Source: a virus. From it: 20,955 nt of DNA. How positions within the stretch are numbered: the stretch's first letter is position 1; the number at the start of each line of letters is the position of its first letter. The DNA is taken from positions 1 to 20,955 of the IMG/VR virus record IMGVR_UViG_3300020020_000174. One strand, given 5' to 3'. The notes beneath the pieces are model-generated. The model was not told where the DNA came from, did no database searches, and saw nothing but the letters and a program-made list of their open reading frames with translations. Both the position numbers and the translations under genes were made by a program. Shown one piece after another: positions 11,231 to 19,230 of the stretch.

Positions 11231-12628
11231 CTACGCGGCCCTCAATATGCTGCCCATGACCCGGCTCGGGTTGATATACTTGGTGCCGTCGCGCGTGGTG
11301 CCGACCGCCCGCTTGTCGATCTTCTCGACGTCCTGCGCCATCGGCCCGACGTGCCGCGCCGGGTCGCCCTTGTAGGACCACTCCGAGATCGGCAGCTGCT
11401 TGCGCTTGCCGTCCTCGCCGGCGGCGAAAACGGTGCCCATCGGCACCACGTTCTCCTTGGCGCGCTCGTCGGAGATGATGCTGGCGCCGGCGCCGAGGAT
11501 GCCGCCCATCGTGCTCTGCCAGTTCTGGTTCTGGGCGTTGTAGTTCTGCATTTGCTGATTGTAGCTGTTGTTGATCAGGCCGCCGATGTCGGTGGTGGCG
11601 ATCTGGCTGCCCGGCGTGTTGATCCAGTTCGGCGACTGCACTTGGCTGCCCGACATCAGTGAGGTGATCTCGTTGATCGGCTGGTTGCGCGCGGCGTACT
11701 GCTCCTGCAGGTAGGCGTTGCGCGCGGTGTTTTGCGCGTTGAAGCCGGACTGCGCCTGCGCCAGCTGCTGGGCGAGGCCGGCGTTGTTGAAGCCGGCCTG
11801 CGCCGCGTTCTGGGTGAATTGCTGGCCCTGCGCGGCGTTTTCAAAAGTGCCCCGGCCAAGCTCCTGCTGGTAGGCCTGCCCCTGCGCGGCGTTCTGGAAG
11901 GCGGCGAGGCTGCCCGCCATCTGGTTCATGCGCTGCTGCTCGGCGCCGGCTTGGCCGACCGCGGCGAAGCGCGCGTCGGTGGCCTGCCGGTTGTAGTCGT
12001 CCATCGCGCTGGAATAAGCCTGCGAGCCGTAGCGGATGCCCTGATCGGCCAGCCGCTGTTCGATGTTCTTGCGCTCGATCGCCAGCTGCGGGTTCATCCG
12101 CTGCATCAAACTATCTTCGACGCGCTGCCGGTCGGCGGAGAAGTTGTCGGCCGGGCCGTAGGTGCGGGTGATGTCGCCGGCGTCACCAAACTGGCGCTGG
12201 ATCTGCCCGCCCGGGTCGAACGAGGTCGCCGCCTTTTGGGCGTTGGTGATGGTGCTGGGATCGCCGCGCGCCGGGCCGCCGGCGTTCGGGTTGAACGGCG
12301 TCGACAGCAGGCTGGAGACACGGCCGCTCTGCGCGTTCGCCATGCCGGCCAGATTGAAGGCCGCAGCCTCCTGCTGGCCTTGGATCGCCTGCTGTTGCGG
12401 CGACGGCGTCTGCGTCGCCGTGAACGACGGGATGTTGTAGGTCTGCCCGGTGGTCGGGTCGACCCAAGCGTAGTTTCCGGTCTGGTTGTAGTCCAGACGC
12501 CCCTGCGGCGTGACCTGATTGACTTGGTTCAGGTACTTGTTGGCGATCGCGGTGCCGACATTGGTGCCGGTCGCGGCGGCGGCCGTTGCGTAGGGGTTGG
12601 GCGGCTGCGGGGGATCTGGCTTGCTCAA
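11231..12628 (-). CDS. virion protein with C-terminal S74-like chaperone domain (465 aa, TTG start)
   Basis: The N-terminal part (PPQPPNPYATAAAATGTNVG ... TPQGRLDYNQTG) resembles a family of podovirus structural proteins often annotated as tail-fibre-domain proteins. The middle (~200-330) is Gln/Asn/Ala-rich with repeated NAAQGQ-type segments, probably helical or disordered. The C-terminus has SDERAKENV from S386, then WSYK (417-420) and HVGPMAQDVEKI (426-437), matching the start and the GxxAQDV segment of Peptidase S74 domains, with S386/K391 as the candidate dyad. The domain is only ~80 residues, shorter than in the fibre. The start codon is TTG at 12628, supported by AGGAAG 6 bases upstream; the first in-frame ATG is nearly 100 codons further on. 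It probably sits in the tail or ejection apparatus. Confidence 0.82.
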   Translation of the reverse strand: MSKPDPPQPPNPYATAAAATGTNVGTAIANKYLNQVNQVTPQGRLDYNQTGNYAWVDPTTGQTYNIPSFTATQTPSPQQQAIQGQQEAAAFNLAGMANAQSGRVSSLLSTPFNPNAGGPARGDPSTITNAQKAATSFDPGGQIQRQFGDAGDITRTYGPADNFSADRQRVEDSLMQRMNPQLAIERKNIEQRLADQGIRYGSQAYSSAMDDYNRQATDARFAAVGQAGAEQQRMNQMAGSLAAFQNAAQGQAYQQELGRGTFENAAQGQQFTQNAAQAGFNNAGLAQQLAQAQSGFNAQNTARNAYLQEQYAARNQPINEITSLMSGSQVQSPNWINTPGSQIATTDIGGLINNSYNQQMQNYNAQNQNWQSTMGGILGAGASIISDERAKENVVPMGTVFAAGEDGKRKQLPISEWSYKGDPARHVGPMAQDVEKIDKRAVGTTRDGTKYINPSRVMGSILRAA

Positions 12629-13464: not shown

Positions 13465-15003
13465 TTACCAATCGCCGCCACTGCCGCCGGGGCCGCCGCC
13501 GGGGCTGCCGGCGCTGCCGGCGTCGCCGGTGCCGCCGTCACCGCCCTGCCCGCCAGCGGTGCCGCCGCCTTGGCCGCCGCCGGCATCGCCGGCATTGCCG
13601 CCGGTGGCGCTGCCGCCAAGGCCGCTGTCGCCGGTGCTGCCGCCGCTGGGGCCGCCGTCGCCGCCGGCGGGACCGCCGGTGGCGCCGCCAGTACCGCCGG
13701 GGCCGCCGTCGCCGCCGCCGCCAACCCCGCTTGCACCGCCGCCACCGCCGCCGCCGCCCGCGCTGCCGCCACCGCCGCCGCCGCCCGCGCTGCCGCCACC
13801 GCCGCCGCCTGCGCTGCCACCGCCGTCACCGCCGCCGCCGCCGCCGCCGCCGCCGTCGCCGCCTGCGCCTATCCCGCCATCGCTGGTCGAGGGGGCGCTG
13901 AGGCCGAGACCGAGGCCCTCACTGACCGATTGCGCGCCGAGGCCGAAGCCGAAGCCACCCGACGGGCCGCTCATGCCCATGCCGAAGCCGCTGTCAGCCG
14001 GGCCAGTGTCATTGGCGTTAAAGCCCATCGGGCTGGGCGCGAGGCCCCTGCCCGCCGGCGCCGCCGGCGGTCCGAGGTTCGGACCCTGCTGCGTAACCGG
14101 GCCAGATGCCGGGCCGGGGCCAAAGCTGAGGCCCTGCTCGACGCTCTGACTGACGCCGGGCGTCGCCATGTTGGTCTTGCCCAGCCCGTTGGCGATCGCC
14201 CAGCCCAGCGCCTGCGACACGTCGCTCTGGGTAAAGCCCAGCCGACCGTCCGCGGCGGGCGCTGCGGGCGTTCCCGGCGTTCCCGGCGTTCCCGGCGGCG
14301 CGGGGGCCACGGGCGCCGTCGGCGGCGCCGGAGGGGCGTTGAACGGGGTGATGGTAAAGGTCTTATTCGGGTTCGGCGCTTGGTTGGTCGGCCCCGGCAC
14401 CACCGAGTAGCCCTCGTGGGGGCCGATGACGCCGAGCGGCGCGTTCGCGTTTTCCGGGTCCGACAAGTTGGGGTCGGTTTCTACGTTGACTTCGGGTCCG
14501 ACCACCGGGTTGGCAAGCGTGGGGCCGATGAAGCCAAAGTCTGGGTTGGGCGCGGGTGTGGGGGCCACGTCGACCGCGACGCTTGAGTTATGCTGAGATG
14601 GCGGTGTGCCGGGGTCGACCGAGACGTTCGAGTTGTGCGCGGAGGATGGGCCGGGCGCGCCGGGGTCACCCTCGACGCCGACATTGGAGTTGGTCGGGCC
14701 GGGGCCAAGGCCGGTAGCCGGGCCGCCAAGGGCGCCGGCGTCGCCGATGCCGCCGTCCGCGCCATCCGCGCCGCTGCCGCCATATCGCTGGCCGACGTCA
14801 CCGCTGCGCACGATCCACGTCGCGATCGCGTCGCGCTGCGCACTCGCCGGGTCGGCGTCCCGCCGAAACCACGGGTCTAGCGCCGGCGGGCGCCGCAGGT
14901 TGCGCGCGTTCCAGTCGGCGACGGCCGCCATCTGCCCCTCGTCGCCATAGATCCACGCCGGGGCGAATAGCCCTCCCAACGCGCCTGTCCGGTCCTGCAC
15001 CAT
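13465..15003 (-). CDS. glycine-rich low-complexity structural protein (512 aa)
   Basis: The N-terminal ~75 residues are ordinary globular sequence. Next comes a Gly/Pro/Asn-rich region with three related segments (TNSNVGVEGDPG, HNSNVSVDPG, HNSSVAVD) and a short collagen-like PGTPGTPGTP. A short helical patch follows (SQALGWAIANGLG), and the last ~130 residues are mostly Gly with Ser and Ala, encoded by GCC/GGC-type triplets. Such proteins may decorate the virion or form a flexible linker; function is unknown. I prefer ATG 15003, with GAGGG upstream, over ATG 15042, which lacks a ribosome binding site and overlaps the previous gene by 26 bases. The long plus-strand frames here are shadows of the repetitive GC-rich codons. 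Confidence 0.75.
   Translation of the reverse strand: MVQDRTGALGGLFAPAWIYGDEGQMAAVADWNARNLRRPPALDPWFRRDADPASAQRDAIATWIVRSGDVGQRYGGSGADGADGGIGDAGALGGPATGLGPGPTNSNVGVEGDPGAPGPSSAHNSNVSVDPGTPPSQHNSSVAVDVAPTPAPNPDFGFIGPTLANPVVGPEVNVETDPNLSDPENANAPLGVIGPHEGYSVVPGPTNQAPNPNKTFTITPFNAPPAPPTAPVAPAPPGTPGTPGTPAAPAADGRLGFTQSDVSQALGWAIANGLGKTNMATPGVSQSVEQGLSFGPGPASGPVTQQGPNLGPPAAPAGRGLAPSPMGFNANDTGPADSGFGMGMSGPSGGFGFGLGAQSVSEGLGLGLSAPSTSDGGIGAGGDGGGGGGGGGDGGGSAGGGGGGSAGGGGGGGSAGGGGGGGGASGVGGGGDGGPGGTGGATGGPAGGDGGPSGGSTGDSGLGGSATGGNAGDAGGGQGGGTAGGQGGDGGTGDAGSAGSPGGGPGGSGGDW
13741..13818. repeat. 27-bp tandem repeat, about three copies
   Basis: Two perfect 27-bp units (13741-13767 and 13768-13794) are followed by a 24-bp variant (13795-13818) with one triplet missing and one C-to-T change. 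Each encodes a Gly run ending in GSA within the glycine-rich protein. The surrounding 13465-13870 is a wider GCC-triplet tract. Unit lengths are multiples of three, so slippage would change protein length without shifting frame. Confidence 0.9.
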
Positions 15004-15016
15004 GTCGCGTAAACCC

Positions 15017-16636
15017 TCAGACGTTGACACCCAATCGTTCATACGTTGCCGCGATCGAGATGATCTCGACCTCGGGCTTGGCCTGCTGCGCCACCGTGAC
15101 CTGCACGATCGGCGCGTGGCTGTAGCCGGTCATGCCGATCGACACCCAGCCGGTGTTGCGCACCACCGGCGGCGGCGGCGTGCCGGCGTCCCAGATCGAA
15201 GTGCCCCACAGGCCCTGATCCCAGAGATCGAGCAGGCCGGGGTCCGGCCCCGCCAGCGGCGGCTGCGGCAGCGTCACGACGTAGTCGGTGGTGGCCGAGA
15301 TCTGCGGCACGAACGGCTCGCCGGCGCGGGCCGAGAACGAGACGCGCGACTGCCGCCAAGTGATGGTCTGCGAGGGCGAGGCGAACATCTCCCAGCCGCC
15401 GACCAGCGTGGCGATGTAGGGCACGCCGTCGTCGTAGCCGGTGCGGTCGGCCTGCATGATGCGGCCGGTCTGCGTGCCGAAGAACATATCGCCGCGCATC
15501 CGCATGAAGCACATCGCGTCCCAGCCGGTGAAGCGGCCCCACGCGCCGGTGGCGGCGTTGACGACGAGGCAGCGATACTTGCCCGGCGTGCCGCCCGGCA
15601 GCGTCACGAAGATGCCGCCGTATTCGTCCCACTTGCACATGGTCCAGCTGTGCTCGCGCTTGTCGAGCACCTCGGCGCGCCACGTCGGCTTGATCTGCCG
15701 GCTGACGGCGGCCAGCTCCAGCTCGGCGCGGTCCTTGGTGATGGCCCCCGATGTCGGCAGGATGCCGTCGACGGTGGCGATCAGAAGGTCGCCGCCGATC
15801 GCAAGGTGCGCGTTCATGCCGAGTGGCGGCGACATCTCGTAGCGGCCCTCTTGCCGCCAGTTGGCGGCGCTGGAGGGATCGCCGCCGGTGAAGATCAGCA
15901 GCTCCCCGAGATTGGTGCAGAACACCAGCTTGTCGTCGATGCCGTCGCCGGCGTCGATCGACCAGCTGGCGCAGAACAGCAGCTTGCCGCCCTTGGTGGC
16001 GGCGCCCGACAGCGGGATCATCGCCAGCGCGCCGCCGACCGCGTTGAGCGGCAGGTACCACGCATTCATGCTGTTCAGTTCGATGAAGAAGTAGCGGTTG
16101 CGGTACTTGCAGACGTAGGAAAGGTTGGCGCCGGCCGCGACCGGCGTGCCGGCCGGGCCGGTGATCTGGCCCGCGTTGAGCACTTCCCACGTCGTTCCGT
16201 TGTAGCGCAGCGGCGGGTCGCCGGCGTCGTTGACCGCGAGCAGCCAGTCGCCGCCCTGATTGGCGAGCTGCGAGGCGACGTAGTTGCCGCTGGTGCGGCC
16301 GCTGGCGACCATGACCGGCACCGCGGAGGTGACGTTGTAGACCTTGGCGGTGTTGGCGGCGAACATCTGGTGGATGATGCCGCTGGCGTATTCGAAGCCG
16401 GAGATAACAGGCGTTGTCTCCGGCAGCTGGCACCACTCCTCGCAACCGCCGCGCAGCTTGACGCCGCGCATGGTCGGCGCCCAGTTGTCGCAGATCACGG
16501 CGGCGCCCGGCTGCATGTAGGCGAAATTCTCGTTCTCGATGATGCCACGGGTCGGCGCCGGCAGCGTGATCGTCTCCAGCTTCTGCGCCACCTGCGCAGG
16601 CACCGCCACCCGCTTGAAGGCCTGATGCTGGCTCAT
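15017..16636 (-). CDS. tail tube B-like (gp12-like) protein (539 aa)
   Basis: The product has many short beta-rich blocks with repeated Trp, Gly and aromatic residues (for example LSYVCKYRNRYFFIELNSMN and DDKLVFCTNLGELLIFTGGD), suggesting a beta-propeller or nozzle-type fold. Length and place just after the adaptor gene match the tail tubular protein B / nozzle of T7-like podoviruses. The N-terminal segment TLPAPTRGIIENENFAYMQP matches the family's usual start, where the protein lists and positions itself on the adaptor ring. ATG 16636 overlaps the preceding stop as ATGA; the open frame further upstream lies inside the adaptor gene and is not used. It probably forms the distal tail tube that carries the fibres. 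Confidence 0.8.
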   Translation of the reverse strand: MSQHQAFKRVAVPAQVAQKLETITLPAPTRGIIENENFAYMQPGAAVICDNWAPTMRGVKLRGGCEEWCQLPETTPVISGFEYASGIIHQMFAANTAKVYNVTSAVPVMVASGRTSGNYVASQLANQGGDWLLAVNDAGDPPLRYNGTTWEVLNAGQITGPAGTPVAAGANLSYVCKYRNRYFFIELNSMNAWYLPLNAVGGALAMIPLSGAATKGGKLLFCASWSIDAGDGIDDKLVFCTNLGELLIFTGGDPSSAANWRQEGRYEMSPPLGMNAHLAIGGDLLIATVDGILPTSGAITKDRAELELAAVSRQIKPTWRAEVLDKREHSWTMCKWDEYGGIFVTLPGGTPGKYRCLVVNAATGAWGRFTGWDAMCFMRMRGDMFFGTQTGRIMQADRTGYDDGVPYIATLVGGWEMFASPSQTITWRQSRVSFSARAGEPFVPQISATTDYVVTLPQPPLAGPDPGLLDLWDQGLWGTSIWDAGTPPPPVVRNTGWVSIGMTGYSHAPIVQVTVAQQAKPEVEIISIAATYERLGVNV

Positions 16637-17363: not shown

Positions 17364-18071
17364 CTATGCTACTTTCTCAGGCCGCACGTTCTCCGCCATC
17401 CGCACCAGCGTCTTGCGGTTCATGTTGTTGGCGCCGATCGGTTCCTGACCCGAATGCACCCGGACGTACTCGCGCAACTGCGGCAGGTCCATGCTGTCGA
17501 ACTCGCTGGCGGGTTCGGCAGCTTTCTTGTTGGCGGCGTCCTCCTCGAGGATGACGTTGCGGGCGCGCAGCTGCTCCAGCTCCGCCATCATCTGCTTGTT
17601 CGGCGCCGACGAGCGGCCCTCGGCGATGTATTCCTCGGCCTTGTTCTTCATCTCGCGGCCGCCGGGTCCGAGGTTCTTCAGCTCGATGCCGTCGATCGCG
17701 GCGAGCTGCTCCACGGTGTAGACGTTGAGCGCCCGCAGCTCGGCGCGGCGCGCGTCGCTGAGAAACGGCGCAATGTCGAGCGGCATGCCGACCTTGGTCT
17801 GCGTGGCGTCGCGCTTAAACTGCTGGTACTGGTGCCGGAAGCGTTCGGCGTAGCTCTCCTTGCGCTGGCTGCCGGTGTAGGGGTCGTCGACCCAGCGGCA
17901 CACGTCGGTCGAGGGAAACACCTTGATGTCCTTTGATCCGGCCGAGCGGATCTCGCAGACCTCGACATCCTCGTAGATCGGGCGGCCCTCCGCGAGACTG
18001 CGCGTCTCGTTGTGGATGGCGATGTGCTTGAACGTGACGACGAGAAGCTCGTCGGGATCCCGTGGTGGCAT
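17364..18071 (-). CDS. unknown phage protein with HhH-like and SAP-like regions (235 aa)
   Basis: Not recognised as a named family. Residues ~1-65 look beta-rich (LLVVTFKHIAIHNE, KDIKVFPSTDVCRWV). Residues ~105-150 (LRALNVYTVEQLAAIDGIE, LKNLGPGGREMKNKAEEYI) resemble a helix-hairpin-helix. Residues ~158-185 form a likely coiled coil. Residues ~191-228 (MDLPQLREYVRVHSGQEP ... RKTLVRMAENV) resemble a SAP/Rho-N-type helical motif. These suggest DNA contact, and the place between capsid and adaptor suggests a head-completion or DNA-stabilising role, both inferred. AAGGAAGGA lies 9 bases before ATG 18071 and is part of a pseudoknot-capable structure. Confidence 0.75.
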   Translation of the reverse strand: MPPRDPDELLVVTFKHIAIHNETRSLAEGRPIYEDVEVCEIRSAGSKDIKVFPSTDVCRWVDDPYTGSQRKESYAERFRHQYQQFKRDATQTKVGMPLDIAPFLSDARRAELRALNVYTVEQLAAIDGIELKNLGPGGREMKNKAEEYIAEGRSSAPNKQMMAELEQLRARNVILEEDAANKKAAEPASEFDSMDLPQLREYVRVHSGQEPIGANNMNRKTLVRMAENVRPEKVA

Positions 18072-18081
18072 GAGTAAACGT

Positions 18082-18152
18082 CCTTCCTTGGTTGAAGTGA
18101 TCAGGGGCCGCCTTCATGGAAGGAAGGCGTAAACCTACACGTCGGCGGCCCC
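18082..18152 (-). promoter_or_regulatory. pseudoknot-capable interleaved inverted repeats over a ribosome binding site
   Basis: In the leftward mRNA, GGGGCCGCC (18152-18144) can pair with GGCGGCCCC (18112-18104), a perfect 9-bp stem. Its loop contains CCTTCCTT (18127-18120), which is exactly complementary to AAGGAAGG (18089-18082), the Shine-Dalgarno of the gene starting at 18071. The arms are interleaved, which is H-type pseudoknot topology, with connecting stretches of 16, 7 and 14 bases. Allowing one bulge, the second stem extends to 11 bp. It could throttle translation after the capsid gene, or the 9-bp stem alone could act as a transcriptional attenuator. The rest of 18072-18192 shows nothing else. 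Confidence 0.55.
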
Positions 18153-18192
18153 ATCACCTGCTGCTCCCTGACAAAGAGGTAGCAGGATTGCG

Positions 18193-19230
18193 TCAGGCTG
18201 CCGGGTTGCTATCGTACAACCGCCAGTTGAACATCGGATTTGTCATCGTAAGTTCGCCCATCCACCCGATGAACTGGGCAATGGCGTCCTTGTCGATCGG
18301 CATCTGCCCGTCACCGTCGAACAGCTTGTCGAAGTTACGCGAGGGGTGATAGCGCAGCCGCAGCGTGTCGGTGTTGAGGCCGAACGTGGTGTTGGCTGGC
18401 ATGTTGGAGCCGATGCCGCCGTCGAGCACGATCTCGGCGCGCTTGCCGCCGCCGATGTATTCCAGCGCCGAGAAGCCGAGCGAGCCGAGGCTGGTGCTGC
18501 CCTGCTGGCGCTGCATCGCGACGGTGGCGGCGTCGTAGGCCGCGTAATGCTCGGGCGACATGATCAGCAGATCGGCGTAGTCACGGCCGCGCGACTGCTT
18601 GGTCATTGCGTAATTGAGCATCGGGCGGATGGTGGCCGAGGTCACCTGCGTGCCGATCGGCGTCAGCGAGATGGTGCCCGCGGCGCCGGAGGGATCGAAG
18701 GTCTTGGTCTGCCAGATCACGGCGGTGGCGCGATCGATGCCGCCGTAGACGCCGGTGTTTGGCAGCACGGGGACGGCGGTCGCAAGACCGGTGATCTGCT
18801 TGTTGCCATTGGCGGTGCCGTCGGAGTAGATGCCGGCGTCCATGGCATCTTCCAGCGCCTTCTCGGCCGCCGTCAGATAGCTCTCGAACACGTCCATCAG
18901 CTGCGCTTCGCCTTGGTTGTTCAGGATCTCCTGCATCGACAGGATCAGCGGAATAACCACCATCTTCGGCGAGTAGACCGCATCGTTGAACAGATCGATG
19001 GCCGGGTTGAGCAGCTGATCATAGCCGCTGTACCACTGCGAGACTTGCTTGCCGATCTGCAGGGTCTGGCGGATGGTCGGGCCGGAGTAGGTCTGCCACA
19101 GGCCCTTGCGCTTGAGCACGGCGAGCAGCGCGTTGTTGTTGGAGACGAGATCCTGATAGCTGGCCGATCGATCTTCGACGGCCATGGACAGCACCTGCTG
19201 GTACTGCGCGGTGGTAGCAATGTTGGGCAT
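18193..19230 (-). CDS. major capsid protein (345 aa)
   Basis: The length, composition and layout fit an HK97-fold major capsid protein of podoviruses. There is an N-terminal helical arm (MPNIATTAQYQQVLSMAVED), a segment with VVIPLILSMQEILNNQGEAQ and SYLTAAEKALEDAMDAGIYS (the long spine-helix region), then TSATIRPMLNYAMTKQSRGR, DLLIMSPEHYAAYDAA, and a conserved-looking C-terminal stretch with RYHPSRNFDKLFDG and IGWMGELTMTNPMFNWRL. The scaffold gene lies directly before it, as expected. GGGAGAGG precedes ATG 19230. No cleavage protease is seen in the window. It should form the icosahedral shell by self-assembly on the scaffold. Confidence 0.9.
   Translation of the reverse strand: MPNIATTAQYQQVLSMAVEDRSASYQDLVSNNNALLAVLKRKGLWQTYSGPTIRQTLQIGKQVSQWYSGYDQLLNPAIDLFNDAVYSPKMVVIPLILSMQEILNNQGEAQLMDVFESYLTAAEKALEDAMDAGIYSDGTANGNKQITGLATAVPVLPNTGVYGGIDRATAVIWQTKTFDPSGAAGTISLTPIGTQVTSATIRPMLNYAMTKQSRGRDYADLLIMSPEHYAAYDAATVAMQRQQGSTSLGSLGFSALEYIGGGKRAEIVLDGGIGSNMPANTTFGLNTDTLRLRYHPSRNFDKLFDGDGQMPIDKDAIAQFIGWMGELTMTNPMFNWRLYDSNPAA

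Follow-up and report, generated by a model that had tools for sequence, protein, structure and literature searches.

In preQ1 riboswitches of class III and of class I type III, an H-type or nested pseudoknot takes the Shine-Dalgarno (SD) sequence into its helix (AAGG in the latter) and blocks the ribosome (PMC11625349). The operator of ribosomal protein S15 (rpsO) likewise has a leader pseudoknot by which initiation is controlled; it embraces the SD in E. coli and lies upstream of this site in mycobacteria (PMC10931766). In 2010, the pseudoknot of T4 gene 32 was regarded as possibly unique among viral pseudoknots in its use for translational autoregulation (PMC3014915). A further type of control has been reported for the T7-like phage LUZ100, where a strong terminator is found just downstream of the capsid gene (PMC10134795).

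Here, we discuss a junction in an IMG/VR virus record of 20,955 bases, analyzed at full length and called the window from here on. An earlier note on this DNA had proposed an RNA element behind the capsid gene that sequesters the ribosome binding site (RBS) of the next gene, and its overall picture proved largely right. Comparative sequence analysis makes it likely that the leader between the two genes carries a cis-acting translational operator, in which a hairpin loop and the SD form an H-type pseudoknot that gates the downstream gene. The parts of this candidate operator and its flanking genes are listed in RNA order.

18193–19230, minus strand: major capsid protein gene (phrog_9953, major head protein; E 1.5e-78), upstream of the element
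18153–18158, minus strand: lower extension of P1, GGUGAU, in the MFE fold paired with AUCACU (18101–18096) past a 2-nt UG bulge
18144–18152, minus strand: 5′ arm of P1, GGGGCCGCC (RNA 5′ end at 18152), exact inverted repeat, covarying in 46 homologues
18142–18143, minus strand: 5′ side of the internal loop, GA, facing AA at 18113–18114; the A here is at least 90% conserved (alignment A2)
18138–18141, minus strand: 5′ strand of P2, CGUG, partner of CAUG, with paired changes in relatives
18119–18137, minus strand: apical loop, UAGGUUUACGCCUUCCUUC, holding a near-invariant UAGGU and the anti-SD CCUUCCUU (alignment)
18120–18127, minus strand: 5′ strand of S2 (anti-SD), CCUUCCUU, within the apical loop, exact complement of AAGGAAGG at 18082–18089 and subject of the permutation tests
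18115–18118, minus strand: 3′ strand of P2, CAUG (CRYG in relatives; alignment and covariation)
18104–18112, minus strand: 3′ arm of P1, GGCGGCCCC, exact inverted repeat, covarying in 46 homologues
18096–18101, minus strand: 3′ side of the lower extension of P1, AUCACU (MFE fold)
18082–18089, minus strand: 3′ strand of S2, the SD AAGGAAGG of the downstream gene, 10 nt from its ATG
18069–18071, minus strand: ATG start codon of the HhH/SAP-like gene
17364–18071, minus strand: gene of the 235-aa HhH/SAP-like protein (phrog_20268, unknown function; PHROG E 7.6e-28), the presumed target

How does this element compare with the described systems? With the preQ1 riboswitches it shares a predicted pseudoknot that pairs the SD; its stems and loop differ, there is no link to queuosine genes and no ligand is known. 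The S15 operators resemble it as leader pseudoknots, and the contrast between E. coli and mycobacteria recalls the two classes A and B described below. Their genes and sequence are different, however, and in E. coli S15 entraps a bound 30S subunit. T4 gene 32 is likewise preceded on its mRNA by a pseudoknot, as is the presumed target here, but the T4 structure sits 67 nt upstream, and instead of pairing with the SD it nucleates cooperative gp32 binding that covers the ribosome binding site. Like the LUZ100 terminator, the element would be an RNA signal directly after the capsid gene that lowers downstream expression; the LUZ100 signal is transcriptional, and the window's element has no U-run.

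Searches for catalogued RNAs gave no Rfam 15 match at gathering score in the window or in eight homologous loci, which leaves no candidate riboswitch or other known RNA from this source. A preQ1 riboswitch can be set aside, as no covariance model matched and the downstream gene is a phage protein outside any preQ1 context. The best sub-threshold match, an L25 ribosomal protein leader at 18157–18186 on the plus strand (21 bits against a cut-off of 34.1), lies on the non-coding strand and is probably due to chance.

The two perfect, interleaved inverted repeats described in the earlier note are present: 18104–18112 (GGGGCCGCC) is the exact reverse complement of 18144–18152, and 18082–18089 (CCTTCCTT) that of 18120–18127. 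The latter sets the loop against the SD of the gene at 18071 in an exact 8-bp match. This SD, AAGGAAGG, stops 10 nt short of the ATG and occurs only here on the minus strand of the whole window. The proposed extent of 18082–18152 holds for the repeats and falls short at the 5′ limit, since the full element reaches about 18158: the 9-bp stem is longer than first described, as GGUGAU/AUCACU continues it downward and a further stem of 4 bp, CGUG/CAUG, follows above the GA/AA internal loop. The SD helix can be extended by ACG/CGU beyond a bulged A. Because interleaved 9+8 pairs of the same geometry are not rare in shuffled sequence (23 hits in 60 dinucleotide-shuffled windows, about 0.4 per strand) and the nested fold of the 141-nt region is just slightly better than that of its shuffles (z −1.64), the window sequence alone is weak evidence. 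The case for the element rests on its conservation in relatives.

Homologue searches with the two proteins, capsid and downstream, yielded 29 and 80 IMG/VR loci. The hairpin recurs at the capsid/HhH-SAP junction in dozens of contigs from phages, in each case on the coding strand and some 65–80 nt ahead of the same HhH/SAP-like gene. It is made up of a P1 of 9–11 bp, the GA/AA internal loop, a 4-bp P2 and the apical loop UAGGUnnnnGCCUUCCUUC, and most close relatives share the consensus CCGGGGCCGCC-GA-CGUG-UAGGUnnnnGCCUUCCUUC-CRYG-AA-GGCGGCCCCGG between capsid stop and downstream start; the lower extension of P1 is confined to the window's sub-branch. A covariance model built on the hairpin detected it at 67 of the 80 nearest downstream-gene loci; among 78 capsid loci, 37 have it. 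All of these lie on the gene's coding strand, directly before the downstream gene, and whatever else matched was weak or a mirror-strand shadow. When the loop was searched as a DNA pattern, 93 IMG/VR stretches matched, nearly all distinct sequences among them in the capsid/HhH-SAP context. The same pattern matched 36 times in 85k bacterial and archaeal genomes, never in this context, as expected for chance. Three 41–42 kb contigs that carry the element have one copy each. Among cultured phages no DNA match to the element was found; in the nearest of them, Rhizobium phage RHph_I3_18 (capsid 61%), an additional gene is present and the element is missing.

The junction has also been a repeated site of insertion: genes for HNH endonucleases of 184–191 aa sit behind the capsid stop, ahead of the next gene, in several loci (L030 4038–4720; L096 1257–1950; L091 4020–4700; L093 4023–4690; L055, L072 and L078), and both inserted genes that were tested contain Pfam HNH_3. 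Where the element is present at such loci, it remains beside the downstream gene.

The alignment of homologues that the earlier note had suggested revealed compensatory changes in the hairpin stem and in the loop-to-RBS helix, most strongly in the former. Across 46 sequences, 95.2% of the P1 and P2 cells are paired, as opposed to 35–46% in controls with slid partners. Changes on both sides occur in 12 of the 15 pairs and in 57 cells (5.4 and 17 in shuffled alignments), and the covariation score of 0.375 exceeds the 0.208 of the shuffles, none of 500 of which scored as high. P2 in particular changes in step, from C-G to U-A in L024 (and by eye in L001) and to G-C in L075, and it reads GGUG/CGCC in L281 and L283 with both strands altered. 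An inner hairpin within the loop, GCCUUC/GAAGGC (7 bp in the window), was discarded, as it has no compensatory change and is broken in several relatives. These patterns support the view that the element is a real RNA element under selection.

Does the loop co-evolve with the ribosome binding site? When apical loops were compared with the 26 nt preceding the start codon, own loop-RBS combinations paired at −15.2 kcal/mol and permuted ones at −14.1 (z −5.3), with none of 10,000 permutations, which ignore phylogeny, as low. The longest Watson-Crick helix averaged 7.7 bp for own pairs, 7.2 for permuted ones and 4.2 against the RBSs of element-less relatives. Reduced to one sequence per RBS cluster, and thus to 10 rows only, 17 of 20,000 permutations were as low. 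Within class A, where the helix covers the SD, the signal is modest (157/5000) because the S2 strands are nearly invariant there. GGAAGG-type SDs are found in 36 of 48 relatives with the element and in none of 26 without it, in counts that ignore phylogeny; the downstream-protein tree offers only one or two well-supported independent pairs for this contrast, too few for a test.

Individual relatives add to this picture. L284, which was found through the hairpin model and not through the loop pattern, keeps the pairing with altered letters: its loop GUCUCCUUUCCUUC, carrying CUUUCCUUC, faces the RBS GAAGGAAAG-A-GAGAC, and extension by GUCUC/GAGAC gives a helix of 14 bp with one bulge, its own loop being the best of 47 for this RBS. 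In L247 the pairing spans 16 bp, divided into two blocks, and its own loop ranks second. Clade B has GGAGAG as SD, and GAUGCCUU pairs in a shifted register with AAGGCAUC just upstream of it. Since the pairing is shifted in this way, a segment other than the SD can be the paired one: the strict SD (GGAG) stays outside the helix in clade B as well as in a few other cases. No preference for the own loop is seen in five diverged RBSs (L058, L067, L070, L075 and L276). Together, the permutations, L284, L247 and clade B support a loop-to-SD pairing. That homologues might keep the genes and lose the pairing had been raised as an argument against it; most close relatives keep the pairing, and where the loop is gone the matching SD is gone too. 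The proposed burial of the SD thus holds for class A, where the helix covers it, and is not universal, as the clade-B helix lies just 5′ of it.

The energetics are less clear-cut. A Dirks-Pierce-like pseudoknot penalty amounts to 9.6 kcal/mol. With this value, the knot is the better state in the window by 1.8 kcal/mol (−1.8) when set against the hairpin with an unpaired RBS. On average it is 3.6 kcal/mol less stable than that alternative, and it is favored in 17 of 73 sequences. A fold with the 9-bp stem and a free SD would have spoken against the element according to the earlier note, and this is in part what nested folding returns, a hairpin with the SD about half unpaired in the ensemble. 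By nearest-neighbor rules the predicted pseudoknot is thus at best marginally stable, which fits a tunable switch or the need for a partner, or means that its effect is small.

On the downstream-protein tree clade B forms one branch nested among class A, and about seven changes are needed to explain presence and absence of the element. Directly after P1, a U-run (6–7 T in 8 nt) is present at all 14 clade-B sites (including L118, L182, L144, L151 and L170), which also gives these hairpins the look of intrinsic terminators. Most element-less relatives keep strong junction hairpins, some of them terminator-like. We infer that a junction hairpin is the common theme, serving as a transcript-end device in some relatives and as a translational operator in others.

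In an alternative reading, the hairpin is mainly a transcript-end device — a partial terminator, a processing site or a stabilizer of the capsid mRNA 3′ end — and the loop-SD match secondary. The clade-B U-runs favor such a role, as do the terminator-like hairpins at the same junction in element-less phages (L098, L102, L106, L302, L310 and RHph_I3_18) and the post-capsid terminator of LUZ100. Yet most class-A sites lack the U-run, the window included, where a terminator scan finds no intrinsic terminator and no U-run follows the stem; nor would a terminator explain the conserved 20-nt loop and its co-evolution with the RBS. We therefore consider this reading unlikely as the main function, and both roles could coexist.

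The pseudoknot might instead promote initiation as a standby or loading platform, perhaps via ribosomal protein S1. Standby-mediated translation of tisB does require a pseudoknot (PMC7708055), S1 binds pseudoknots (PMC10931766), and the SD of clade B is free beside the helix. The helix of class A, however, covers the entire SD, and complementarity often reaches the bases ahead of the AUG, which makes a promoting role very improbable. That selection acts on the hairpin alone, and that the complementarity simply follows from a loop rich in pyrimidines opposite an SD rich in purines, is hardly credible: some pairing with a CCUUCCUU loop is expected of any SD (element loops still reach −9.2 kcal/mol against element-less RBSs) and the pseudoknot energies are marginal, but the fit to the own RBS exceeds that to others in the permutations above, and L284, L247 and clade B are compensated.

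The translational operator is thus the reading we prefer. A GC-rich hairpin (P1, the GA/AA internal loop and P2) would display the apical loop, whose CCUUCCUU would pair with the SD AAGGAAGG about 30 nt downstream to form the H-type pseudoknot. The paired SD would be closed to the 30S subunit, so initiation at the downstream gene would be low or gated, with the upstream capsid gene unaffected. The element probably keeps down the output of the HhH/SAP-like protein. Its purpose may be the ratio of capsid to minor protein or its timing, with the downstream protein held below the capsid level. The comparison itself shows the structure with its covariation, a strict position, and a loop that co-evolves with the RBS.

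UAGGU (18133–18137, minus strand) is near-invariant in all classes and has no covarying partner within the hairpin. A helix between UAGGU and the bases before the AUG was considered and rejected: it is enriched in class A over element-less relatives (p 0.009) and over clade B, but permutation of the spacer halves is not significant (1848/5000). Clade B has no complement to UAGGU near the start codon. As UAGGU is only partly explained by class-A pairing and partnerless in clade B, a protein or tertiary contact is possible. One may speculate, with considerable doubt, that the UAGGU/GA-AA region is recognized by the HhH/SAP-like product (or by the capsid protein), which would stabilize the marginal pseudoknot and shut off its own synthesis, and that clade B moved the pairing off the SD and gained the terminator-like U-run.

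The downstream protein itself offers a faint structural signal. Its AlphaFold2 (AF2) model, from an alignment of window and locus proteins only, has a mean pLDDT of 86 and shows an HhH-like segment followed by a long helix. Foldseek matches in the PDB include the HhH parts of DinB and RAD51, none of them significant, so that the HhH-like fold is weakly matched; no solved relative was found by sequence and no significant one by fold, and its viral matches are unnamed Caudovirales proteins. Elsewhere on the minus strand of the window, the gene at 11231–12628 encodes a virion structural protein (phrog_6121) with an S74 chaperone-of-endosialidase domain at its end, which also weakly resembles a DNA ejection protein. 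A 525-aa ORF at 13465–15042 has a very glycine-rich and repetitive C-terminal half, and its antisense strand is also open.

As in the class of SD-sequestering pseudoknots, the loop-SD pairing is interleaved with the stem in the window and its relatives, though not strictly in clade B, whose helix avoids the SD, and compensation is found in both helices, strongly in P1/P2 and for S2 in tests that ignore phylogeny. By comparison and by analogy, the element is a real, uncatalogued family of phage cis-regulatory RNA that would work like these known pseudoknots. To our knowledge, control of translation initiation has been described for few viral pseudoknots. With this family, phage genomics gains a structured RNA that had not been catalogued, located where the levels of capsid and minor protein are expected to diverge widely. 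Its members form a natural series — element-less with a hairpin or terminator only, class A with the knot over the SD, and clade B with the knot beside it — which lets the evolution of expression control be followed. If the protein-gated switch were true, it would be another phage system of pseudoknot autoregulation beside T4 gene 32, and it would document a shift between translational and possibly transcriptional control.
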